IMG/VR virus record: IMGVR_UViG_3300026484_000333
Coordinates: 19,932 to 83,931 of that record
Source: a virus
Length of the DNA stretch: 64,000 nt
Reading direction: 5' to 3' (one strand)
Part shown: one piece after another, positions 1-60,204 of the stretch
Layout of the letters: each line of letters begins with the position of its first letter
Position numbering within the stretch: position 1 is the stretch's first letter
The notes under the pieces: model-generated
What the model was told of the DNA's origin: nothing
The model's database searches: none
The model's input: only the letters and a program-made list of their open reading frames with translations
Translations under genes and position numbers: made by a program

Positions 1-922
1 TATCAACAACTTTTACACCATCAACATATACATTTAATTTTCCTTCTGTATTATTAATAGTAATAACCAATGTAACAATACCCCTGCCTTCTACTATATC
101 CATAATATTACATAGTATCACATCATCAAAATATAAATTACCATTGTTTAAATCTGTAAAAATAGACATTGTTGTTTCATTTGTATAATAATCTGATGTA
201 TAATTATAAATAAACATTTTATTAATTTTACCTGAACAACGAGCTTTTACTAATTCAGAAAATTGAGCTGTTAAAACAATTGAAACATCACCATTTATCT
301 TATGAGAGGAAGAAGATATTGAATTACACACAATTCTACTATTTAAATAAGGAGCAGTTCTTCCGTATGCATTATAATTCCCTCCTCCACAACCTGTGTT
401 TCCTCCTCCTTCAAAAAATACTTTATCTTTCTTTTTAGCAAATCGATGTATATTTCCTCCAAACGAGATAATATAAGTAAAATCCACATCATACCCATAA
501 CTTCCTTGTATCCAAGCTTTATTGTTTTCAATGGTATTTTCTAAATAATTTGCCAAAACCCTCATAGGTTTTGCACTACCCTTTTTCACATCAATTGTAA
601 CAATATCTCCGTCTTGCCAAGCATTATCTCCTTGTCTAATTGTAAAGCTAATAATGCCATTATCATAAGCTTGGTCAATTTGTGCATCATCTTTTGCCCC
701 ACTAACACTGCCTGTTACTTTAAAAACATCGTTAGTACCATCGTATCTTAATTCCCAAGTTTCTGTTTGAACTGTATTTTGATTAAAAGTAATATTTTCA
801 ATATTTCCATCACCTTGTGCTAAATCATAACTTGTTTCCATACTAACAGGGTTACTTAAAAATTCTACTAAATTATCAATAGCCTCTTTTACTGTCTTCT
901 TGCACTCAACTCTATATGCCAT
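1..922 (-). CDS. Distal tail/minor tail protein, 3' end outside window
   Basis: The first 307 residues are visible and the gene runs off the left edge. The start is ATG (MAYRVECKK). Residues about 60-110 (ending VGDxxTIDV-like, here DGDIVTIDV) repeat a module found in the major tail protein at 8.8-10.1 kb and in the tail protein at 11.2-12.9 kb, so this is a tail protein of the same family. The last visible part (TLVITINNTEGKLNVYVDG) looks like a concanavalin/LamG-type strand pair that could bind glycans. It lies directly downstream of the tape measure gene, the usual place for distal tail and baseplate proteins. Exact function not known. Confidence 0.75.
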   Translation of the reverse strand, partial: MAYRVECKKTVKEAIDNLVEFLSNPVSMETSYDLAQGDGNIENITFNQNTVQTETWELRYDGTNDVFKVTGSVSGAKDDAQIDQAYDNGIISFTIRQGDNAWQDGDIVTIDVKKGSAKPMRVLANYLENTIENNKAWIQGSYGYDVDFTYIISFGGNIHRFAKKKDKVFFEGGGNTGCGGGNYNAYGRTAPYLNSRIVCNSISSSSHKINGDVSIVLTAQFSELVKARCSGKINKMFIYNYTSDYYTNETTMSIFTDLNNGNLYFDDVILCNIMDIVEGRGIVTLVITINNTEGKLNVYVDGVKVVD

Positions 923-40237: not shown

Positions 40238-40537
40238 ATGAACGAATGTAGAATTTATAGCTTTATGGATTTGTTTGTAGAAATGGTGGATAATGTTGAA
40301 AATGATGAAATTAAAAGCAAAGGAATCCAAAAAATTTTGCTTGAGGTTACGGGGCAGGTACTTGAAATTGAAGAAGAAATAAGCGAAGGTTGTAAGCAAT
40401 TGAAAATAAATGATAACTTGGTTTATGAAAAAGGAATGTATTTTATTCCTGTTAAAAATGTTGGTGTTGTAGTTGTAAATGAAGAAGATTTGAGTAAAAT
40501 TGCAGAGCTTTTAAATAAGGAGGAAAGCGATGGTTAA
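40238..40537 (+). CDS. Hypothetical 99-aa acidic protein
   Basis: Acidic; helical first half, beta-rich second half ending in EEDLSKIAELLNKEESDG. GGAGG six nt before the ATG. Family not recognised. Confidence 0.6.
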   Translation: MNECRIYSFMDLFVEMVDNVENDEIKSKGIQKILLEVTGQVLEIEEEISEGCKQLKINDNLVYEKGMYFIPVKNVGVVVVNEEDLSKIAELLNKEESDG

Positions 40538-41793: not shown

Positions 41794-41894
41794 ATCATTT
41801 TTATAATCATTTGGCGGTTATCTGTTATTCATTTTATAATTATCTACCTGTTATTTATTTATAAAATAGTGCCAGACACTTATTTTTATTTAAT

Positions 41895-43260: not shown

Positions 43261-43601
43261 TTAAATTTCATAAAAAATACAAATTTTTTGTTTGTTAAAT
43301 CTGTTAATTTTTTCTTTAAATCTTTTTAAAAAAGTTACCATATCTTCAAAAATTTCAAAATCTAAATTATAAAATTTTGTATTATATTTATACTTTAAAT
43401 AAGTTTCTATATCGTCCCTTAATCCAGTTAAAAAGACATTATTAAGGGTATATTCAACGTTGTTTATAATAATACCCTCTTTATTCGTTTTGAAATTGTT
43501 TTCTTCTTCATAAACGGAAAAAAACTCTTTTTCCGTTATTTCTTTTTCGTTTAATTTTACTTCAATTACTTTTTTTCAAAAACTTTTGTTTCTATTAACA
43601 T
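43261..43601 (-). CDS. Gene split by a -1 frame at A-AAA-AAG
   Basis: GGAGGTGCAAAATG precedes an ATG that gives MLIETKVFEKK then TAA. A -1 shift at A-AAA-AAG, in the right phase and directly before the TAA, continues for 102 codons (VIEVKLNEKEITEKEFF... ending KQKICIFYEI) to 43261. The total would be 113 residues. The other frames have stops. It is either a programmed frameshift gene, a gene rescued by slippage on A7, a fresh pseudogene, or a homopolymer sequencing error. Product unknown. Confidence 0.5.
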
Positions 43602-44842: not shown

Positions 44843-45184
44843 TTATTCAATTTCTAAAATAATTTTTTCTTCTCTTTTTAATTCTTTCATTTTTTCCCTA
44901 ACCTCTTCAATTAAATCAAAAAGATTTTCCTTAAAACTTTCAAAAGGACGATTTATAATATCGTCTGTTTCATTATTGTTATAATATGTTGTGTAATTGC
45001 TTAAAAACAATTTAACACTTTCTTTATTAAGAGAAATATAATAATCTTCATCACCATCATTTATTATTTTAAAACCTTTTTCCTCCACATATTTATCTAT
45101 AATATGTGTAAAGAATTTCATCTCTTCATTGTTGTTCATTACCCTTTCTACTCTACCCGCTCTTAATGTTACTTCTAGTTTCAT
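44843..45184 (-). CDS. Hypothetical protein, first gene of the operon (7)
   Basis: 113 residues, charged (THIIDKYVEEKGFKIINDGD). AAGGAGGTACAAATG start region, consensus promoter 38 nt upstream. Not recognised. Confidence 0.65.
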   Translation of the reverse strand: MKLEVTLRAGRVERVMNNNEEMKFFTHIIDKYVEEKGFKIINDGDEDYYISLNKESVKLFLSNYTTYYNNNETDDIINRPFESFKENLFDLIEEVREKMKELKREEKIILEIE

Positions 45185-45221
45185 TTGTACCTCCTTGTTT
45201 TTTATTGTTTTCTTAACACGT

Positions 45222-45250
45222 ATTATAAAGGATTTTTAACAAAATGTCAA
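45222..45250 (-). promoter_or_regulatory. Consensus sigma70 promoter of the seven-gene operon
   Basis: Minus strand TTGACA, 17 nt, TATAAT. Leader to the first start codon is about 30 nt. Confidence 0.9.
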
Positions 45251-45529
45251 GGATTTTTTATAAAAATTTTCAAAAATTTTTTAATTTTTATTCTTGTATA
45301 TACATTATATATAATAAAAAATTTTTTTTATTGTTTTAATTTTTTAGCTCAATATTATAAGAAATAAGTGTCCAGCACTAAAAATTTTCTTATATTTTAC
45401 TTTATAAAAAATTTAAAAATTTTTCAAAATTTTCCTATATTATACTATTACCGCTTTTTCAGCAAATTTGGCAAGTTTAATTTCTATTACTATTACCACT
45501 TTTTTAGTAGCTTTCAGAAAGTTTAAAAG

Positions 45530-45619
45530 GGAGGCACAAAGGCAAAAGCCTGAAATCTCGGAGGCACAAATGAAATTCTATAAGTAAGGAGGCACAATTT
45601 CCTTTTTGGCTTTTGCCAT
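45530..45619 (-). ncRNA. Candidate antisense-SD regulatory RNA
   Basis: The predicted minus-strand transcript begins at about 45619 and contains UUGUGCCUCC three times (45588-45597, 45560-45569, 45530-45539). This 10-mer can pair along its full length, counting G-U pairs, with GGAGGUACAA, the ribosome site used by the seven genes at 41.9-45.2 kb. A 10-bp stem, GGCAAAAGCC (45617-45608) with GGCTTTTGCC (45550-45541), would put two of the motifs in one loop and the third just outside. It could act as a separate RNA or as the leader of the operon mRNA. 3' end not found. Confidence 0.5.
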
Positions 45620-45623
45620 TCAA

Positions 45624-45652
45624 ATTATAAAAAATTTTTAACTATTTGTCAA
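45624..45652 (-). promoter_or_regulatory. Consensus sigma70 promoter of the candidate RNA
   Basis: Minus strand TTGACA, 17 nt, TATAAT. The predicted start lies at or next to an ATG (leaderless frame MAKAKKEIVPPYL), with no protein gene behind it for 430 nt. Confidence 0.85.
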
Positions 45653-45693
45653 GAGATTTTTTACATTTTTGTAAAAAATTTTTATAAAAAACA

Positions 45694-59722: not shown

Positions 59723-59960
59723 TTGCTTTTCCTTTCAAAAATTTTAATAAATCTTTTTCGAGTTTTTCTTTTGTAGGCTCTTTTCTAACCTTTTTAATCA
59801 TTTTACTGCTTGTATGATGTCTTAAAATGGTTTTTTTCGGCAACTTAAATTCCTTAACTAATCCCTCTGGTATAATCAAATCGTAATAATAAACTTTTTT
59901 CTCCTCCGGCACATACAAAATTGTTCCTTTATAATTTTTATAAGTAGTTTCAATTATCAT
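59712..59960 (-). CDS. Hypothetical 82-aa basic protein
   Basis: Beta-rich start (IIETTYKNYKGTILYVPEEKKVYYYDL), Lys-rich end. Overlaps ThyX by 11 nt. Not recognised. Confidence 0.6.
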   Translation of the reverse strand: MIIETTYKNYKGTILYVPEEKKVYYYDLIIPEGLVKEFKLPKKTILRHHTSSKMIKKVRKEPTKEKLEKDLLKFLKGKANGK

Positions 59961-60204
59961 TGCTTTCTCCTTTTAAATTTTTATAAATTTCAACAAACTG
60001 CTCTTTTGCACTTAAAAAATCTTTGTGTTTACTAACTACCACACGTTTATCACCGTTAAATTTTGTTATAAAATACATACTACCATACTGTCCTATTTCA
60101 AATTCTTTCATATTTTTATCTCTTAAAGCTCTACTATACATAGTATTTATGTATTTTTCATTTTTCTTGTTCTTCTTTATTAGTTTTTTAATAAAACCAA
60201 ACAT
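59950..60204 (-). CDS. Hypothetical 84-aa basic protein
   Basis: Very basic first 25 residues (IKKLIKKNKKNEKYINTMYS). GGAGGAACAAATG start region. Not recognised. Confidence 0.6.
   Translation of the reverse strand: MFGFIKKLIKKNKKNEKYINTMYSRALRDKNMKEFEIGQYGSMYFITKFNGDKRVVVSKHKDFLSAKEQFVEIYKNLKGESNDN

Follow-up and report, generated by a model that had tools for sequence, protein, structure and literature searches.

The window analysed here, a 64,000-nucleotide stretch, is part of an 83,931-base (~84-kb) virus record which, to judge from the tape-measure-like, terminase and polymerase-like genes in its list of open reading frames, is that of a tailed phage. An integrase or resolvase was searched for in the phage and none was found, and searches with its terminase and ThyX returned matches to distant phages only. 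On the minus strand, a pair of genes for a ligase and a membrane protein is followed by a promoter (P1) with three repeated motifs behind it, and then by an operon of seven small genes. The small membrane-protein gene before P1 (45694-45996, minus strand) is frame-broken in one related phage (L225, see below) and degraded in another (L226). P1 (45652-45624, minus strand) is a perfect sigma-70-type promoter, TTGACA-N17-TATAAT, with a score of 12/12. The predicted RNA start at about 45617, 7 nt past the -10 box, is the first G of GGCAAAAGCC. The operon has a perfect promoter of its own, P2 (45250-45222, minus strand), which is kept in both relatives, so that a leader RNA from P1 would not be the sole transcript able to reach the operon. 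The 60-nt surroundings of P2 and P1 are 73% alike. Perfect promoters of the form TTGACA-16..18-TATAAT were found 12 times in the 84 kb and 0 times in the reversed control. P1 thus belongs to a group of strong promoters and is not unique. An A/T spacer like TTGACATTTTATAAAAAATTTTTTATAAT is common to several of them.

For the folding tests we used a predicted leader or antisense RNA domain of 118 nt (45617-45500, minus strand). As candidate intrinsic terminators 3' of the leader, we found just AU-rich hairpins of low stability (-4.4 and -4.9 kcal/mol) that did not clearly beat shuffled sequences, and no clear leader 3' end or terminator was seen between the leader and P2. Two direct repeats with the consensus CTRAAAAANYNGTAATAG lie upstream of P2 on the minus strand (45452 and 45497). 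They recur in L225 (8844 and 8888) and L226 (about 8827 and 8870) and thus persist across the three phages, including the one that has lost the leader; they may be operator sites for the operon. Short palindromes of the type AGTG-N5-CACT, with near variants, are present on both operon flanks (45367-45379, 41868-41880, 41406 and 41554), and similar ones lie beside the operon in L225 (11374) and L226 (8934).

The three motifs read UUGUGCCUCC in the RNA. The preliminary description had placed a consensus promoter and three such motifs, 28-30 nt apart, at this locus, and both proved exact: the DNA form, TTGTGCCTCC, is present in three identical minus-strand copies (motif 1, 45597-45588; motif 2, 45569-45560; motif 3, 45539-45530) spaced by 28 and 30 nt. 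The exact sequence does not occur elsewhere in the whole 83,931-base record. With one mismatch allowed, the window contains 8 matches, compared to 1.69 expected, and no shuffle reached 8. Motif 2 is extended by UUUCAU and could thereby form a 16-nt pairing with gene 1, from the Shine-Dalgarno (SD) sequence to codon 2.

All operon genes are encoded on the minus strand, and the extended ribosome sites reported for them were present before all seven ATGs (GGAGGYRYA at 7/7 starts, with GGAGGUACAA at three of them). Gene 1 (45184-44843; 113 aa, acidic) has the site GGAGGUACAA at 45194-45185, which recurs before gene 3 (44519-43614; 301 aa, acidic), the first operon gene in L225, and before gene 5 (43246-42830; 138 aa, pI 4.15, ArdA-like). 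The sites of the remaining genes are GGAGGCAUAA for gene 2 (44823-44539; 94 aa), GGAGGUGCAA for gene 4 (43601-43260), GGAGGUACAC for gene 6 (42818-42261; 185 aa, acidic) and GGAGGUACAU for gene 7 (42247-41909; 112 aa). Taken together, the combination of motifs, promoter and matching sites was confirmed at the sequence level as correct and well beyond chance. The seven starts also stood, but the gene at 43601 is not intact: it has 11 codons (ATG..GAA AAA AAG TAA), and the remaining ~100 aa are encoded in the -1 frame, open from A AAA AAG onwards. This is a classic -1 slippery heptamer, and the split may reflect programmed frameshifting or else an error in the homopolymer.

Four of the six intact operon proteins are acidic (pI 4.15-4.83). 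Gene 5 and two homologues scored 19.7, 21.9 and 26.5 bits against the ArdA family (Pfam PF07275), all under the cut-off of 27, which the best score misses by half a bit. The predicted fold of gene 5 (pLDDT 87) gave no match below E = 0.19 in a Foldseek search of the PDB, with no ArdA among the 50 matches listed; the fold search gave no support for an ArdA identity. A homologue with 36% identity is present amid small hypothetical genes in the Pelagibacter phage Lederberg EXVC029P. The ArdA assignment is a weak likeness and suggestive only. Since the PF07275 scores are below the cut-off and the fold is without a PDB match, an anti-defence role is a lead, not a result, and we regard the operon as an accessory one with possibly such a role.

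We then compared the 10-nt motif with the 20 nt before each start. If G-U pairs are allowed, five of the seven operon sites pair at 10/10 positions and two at 9/10, in agreement with the earlier count. The duplex energies ranged from -15.2 to -16.2 kcal/mol for the seven operon genes and were -11.0 kcal/mol or weaker for the 83 other called genes. The GGAGG half of the sites is an ordinary SD sequence. Much of the pairing energy is therefore common to any anti-SD sequence, and the second half is the real test. The corresponding seed half UUGUG (G-U allowed) matches five operon sites at 5/5 positions and two at 4/5; of 25 further genes with GGAGG or GGAGA, only one (40238) showed a full match. 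Genes elsewhere had been described as mostly using different sites. This is correct, AAGGA or AGGAG being the usual ones, but GGAGG also precedes 7 of the 83 other called genes, without a matching second half except at 40238. The pattern GGAGRYRYA-N1-5-ATG occurs nine times in the 84 kb, namely at the seven operon starts, in the leader itself and at the gene at 40238.

With the whole leader as query, the operon genes reached a mean of -24.8, compared to -15.2 for other genes (Mann-Whitney p = 4e-5, a value that is too favourable, as the sites could have a common origin). A few unrelated genes scored like operon genes, making the separation less clean than with the motif alone. When the 118-nt leader was cofolded with each of the seven start regions, the mean was -19.7, compared to -9.1 +/- 2.2 for 100 shuffled leaders; for the three sites of L225, the mean of about -17.4 was barely beyond the best of 100 shuffles (-16.6). 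Partly matching sites outside the operon are present before the genes at 59950-60204 (minus strand; GGAGGAACAA, -10.8) and 40238 (plus strand; GGAGGUGUAA, -10.1). Judged by these sites, both are possible weak trans targets; that of the 40238 gene is not kept in L225.

In the predicted fold of the leader, GGCAAAAGCC (45617-45608) pairs with GGCUUUUGCC (45550-45541), 57 nt further on. The 5' arm is one A longer and the 3' arm one U longer in L225, a compensated change resulting in a stem of 12 bp. Motif 1 occupies a 9-nt loop and runs at its 3' end into the stem, motif 2 lies in a 12-nt loop, and motif 3 is single-stranded past the closing stem. The mean unpaired probabilities of motifs 1, 2 and 3 were 0.70, 0.95 and 0.85 in the window phage and 0.73, 0.56 and 0.93 in L225. 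The leader is modestly more stable than shuffled sequences (z -1.3 to -2.3), and the inner hairpins are weaker in L225. In a P1 transcript running into gene 1, the gene 1 site is predicted to pair with motif 2 with a probability of 0.999 (L225, 0.996) and to be unpaired with one of only 0.001 (L225, 0.002), these values, like all our folding values, being equilibrium predictions that ignore translation and co-transcriptional folding. None of 40 shuffled leaders led to such closure (mean unpaired 0.42 and 0.38). The same site is 0.80 unpaired in the P2 transcript, and the transcripts of L226 are naturally open (0.74-0.89).

The two related phages were found in IMG/VR via the neighbouring ligase, which is 87% (L225) and 82% (L226) identical to that of the window phage. 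L225 keeps P1 (with an 18-nt spacer), the leader, the three motifs and the matching sites. The leader (45617-45520) is 84% identical and the motifs 90-100%. Its operon consists of only three genes, homologues of genes 3, 5 and 7, with the sites GGAGGCACAA, GGAGGUGUAA and GGAGACACAC, respectively. All but one of the changes in these orthologous sites are pairing-neutral exchanges of C/U or A/G or fall on the already unpaired last position. The exception is the last gene, where a change from GGAGG to GGAGA is matched by a C-to-U change in motif 1 (UUGUGUCUCC); its pairing energy is -15.1 with the changed motif and -10.0 with the unchanged one.

In L226, P2, the two GTAATAG repeats and the ArdA-like gene are kept, and P1 and the leader are absent. 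Only one operon gene is clearly orthologous, and the sites (GGAGCGAAAA twice, GGAGGAAUAA and GGAGAAAAAA) pair with the motif at just -5.4 to -9.6. A replacement antisense motif for GGAGCGAAAA was sought in the L226 genome, and none was found. It had been held against the proposal in advance if a relative kept the operon and lost the motifs. L226 does so, but it counts as refuting only nominally, since the match is gone from its operon sites as well. The suggested search beside related operons thus recovered leader and matching sites in L225 and neither of them in L226. That both are kept jointly or absent jointly in three genomes, two of them with the element, is our main argument that motifs and matching sites belong together, the two compensations each being a single event. 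The argument is weakened by the low number of genomes and by the single clear orthologue in the L226 operon. The motifs, promoters and matching sites, together with their co-conservation and co-loss, can be read directly from these genomes.

Further searches did not extend this comparison. The motif-pair pattern gave many matches in viral contigs and genomes, mostly inside open reading frames, and among the matches listed, loci outside these phages had at most one matching ribosome site downstream. Patterns specific for the leader or the repeats detected only the L225 contig or gave no match. A single-sequence search with gene 3 returned no viral relative, and a protein search with the ArdA-like product only L225 and L226.

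These results suggest that the operon is repressed by a minus-strand RNA which base-pairs with the ribosome sites there, a reading to which we assign a probability of roughly three in four. It agrees with the initial proposal of a multi-seed RNA or a 5' leader masking several sites, which gained support from the operon-specific pairing, the joint keeping and loss, the compensated changes and the predicted burial of the first site. We infer that P1 is transcribed, as we do the pairing itself, the repression and when in infection it acts. P1 would direct synthesis of a structured RNA from about 45617, the first ~95 nt of which would be closed by the GGCAAAAGCC/GGCUUUUGCC stem, with two UUGUGCCUCC seeds inside and the third single-stranded behind it. 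The seeds would pair with the downstream GGAGGYRYAA sites and thereby block 30S binding. On read-through from P1 into the operon, the leader would mask the gene 1 site in cis via the 16 nt of motif 2; by the folding predictions, this appears to be the best-supported step. As a separate or processed RNA, the leader would repress the P2 mRNA in trans, which we consider probable, since three seeds and seven matched sites suggest trans action as well. P2 mRNA alone, with its strong open site, would be the productive form. With P2 mRNA productive and P1 transcripts masked, we propose that the balance between P1 and P2 transcripts sets the output of the operon.

The masking could also occur in cis only, without a free small RNA: P1 transcripts would be born silent, with their 5' end folded onto the gene 1 site, and P1 would be non-productive or delayed and P2 productive. 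The near-complete predicted closure of this site by motif 2 in both the window phage and L225 fits such a leader, as does the interval up to P2 with no clear terminator. We nevertheless consider it rather unlikely as the whole explanation, because it accounts neither for the presence of three motifs nor for the matching strong sites of genes 2-7. It could be argued instead that there is no regulation at all, the sites being alike by descent or copied together with the genes, and the leader being an inverted duplicate of one of them. The sites are indeed uniform within one operon, and the leader shares a 23-nt inverted similarity (83%) with the gene 1 start. But motifs kept at 90-100% with compensated changes, sites that still largely match although gene content differs between the window phage and L225, and the joint absence of leader and matching sites in L226 make this improbable.

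Any motif complementarity equals identity on the plus strand, where GGAGGCACAA occurs three times, once followed by ATG (MKFYK; MKCYK in L225). These copies could be a decoy (sponge), CsrB/RsmZ-like, for a protein binding the operon ribosome sites, or the leftover starts of former genes that the preliminary description had offered as its alternative. We regard this reading as quite improbable and disfavour the remnants in particular: the sole perfect promoter, starting exactly at the stem, is on the minus strand, and both are conserved, whereas the plus strand has promoter matches at chance level and an open reading frame of only 5 codons. Moreover, the exchanges among the sites are of C/U and A/G, the pattern predicted for positions that pair with G and U in an antisense RNA. 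A general anti-SD RNA, whose three CCUCC seeds would titrate host mRNAs or block them broadly during host takeover, is conceivable since any GGAGG site can pair with CCUCC, but the UUGUG half matches this operon in particular, and the leader was lost together with the matching operon sites. We consider this highly improbable.

An operon-linked RNA repressor, as we propose here, would mean that one ~100-nt RNA and a shared ribosome-site 'address' coordinate a whole operon at the level of translation, and that genes can be swapped in and out with regulation retained. More cases could be searched for by the same signature, extended anti-ribosome-site motifs in several copies next to an operon whose extended sites are uniform, and the design is open to direct reporter testing. 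Known phage antisense RNAs, to our knowledge, act on one or two sites. In the titles, abstracts and passages of the open-access literature that we covered, we found no comparable case.

In phages P1 and P7, the C4 antisense RNA (RF01695) is located upstream in its target operon and occludes ribosome sites by its stem-loops (PMC5320573, PMC12197685, PMC8198154). Our leader is placed likewise, ahead of its targets within one operon, and its sequence complements their ribosome sites. But C4 directs two distinct loops (a' and b') at the icd/ant region, compared to one seed in three copies and seven genes here, and it is excised by RNase P and functions in the immunity of a temperate phage, whereas this phage showed no integrase or resolvase. 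The RF01695 covariance model gave no match in the window at the gathering score and none up to E = 10 in 45180-45680; a search of the whole record also gave none, but neither did its controls, which makes this a weak result. The LhrC sRNA of Listeria monocytogenes has three redundant C-rich seeds, in loops and single-stranded regions, against SD regions (PMC4132741), and the three C-rich seeds of the leader are predicted to have the same arrangement. LhrC, however, is a bacterial multicopy sRNA that acts on unlinked mRNAs by UCCC seeds, while the phage RNA adjoins the operon, and extended ribosome sites throughout that operon match its 10-nt seed. An Rfam search of the window detected no match to LhrC or any other family.

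The likeness to acr-aca operons, in which Aca proteins autorepress anti-CRISPR operons (PMC9765179), extends no further than the logic of giving an accessory operon of a phage, possibly one with an anti-defence role, a repressor element of its own. Aca repressors are proteins, whereas we propose an RNA, and the anti-defence role is suggested by a single weak match to ArdA. More tentatively, and with odds that we would put below even, one short RNA with three interchangeable seeds may control every gene of a modular accessory operon, which genes join via a 10-nt site, with silent P1 and productive P2 forming a switch, and so be an RNA-only counterpart of Aca. Overall, the leader is closest to C4 in its logic and to LhrC in its layout, and it is a member of neither family. 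What we propose as new is the single repeated seed serving a whole operon, whose genes turn over while the site stays.
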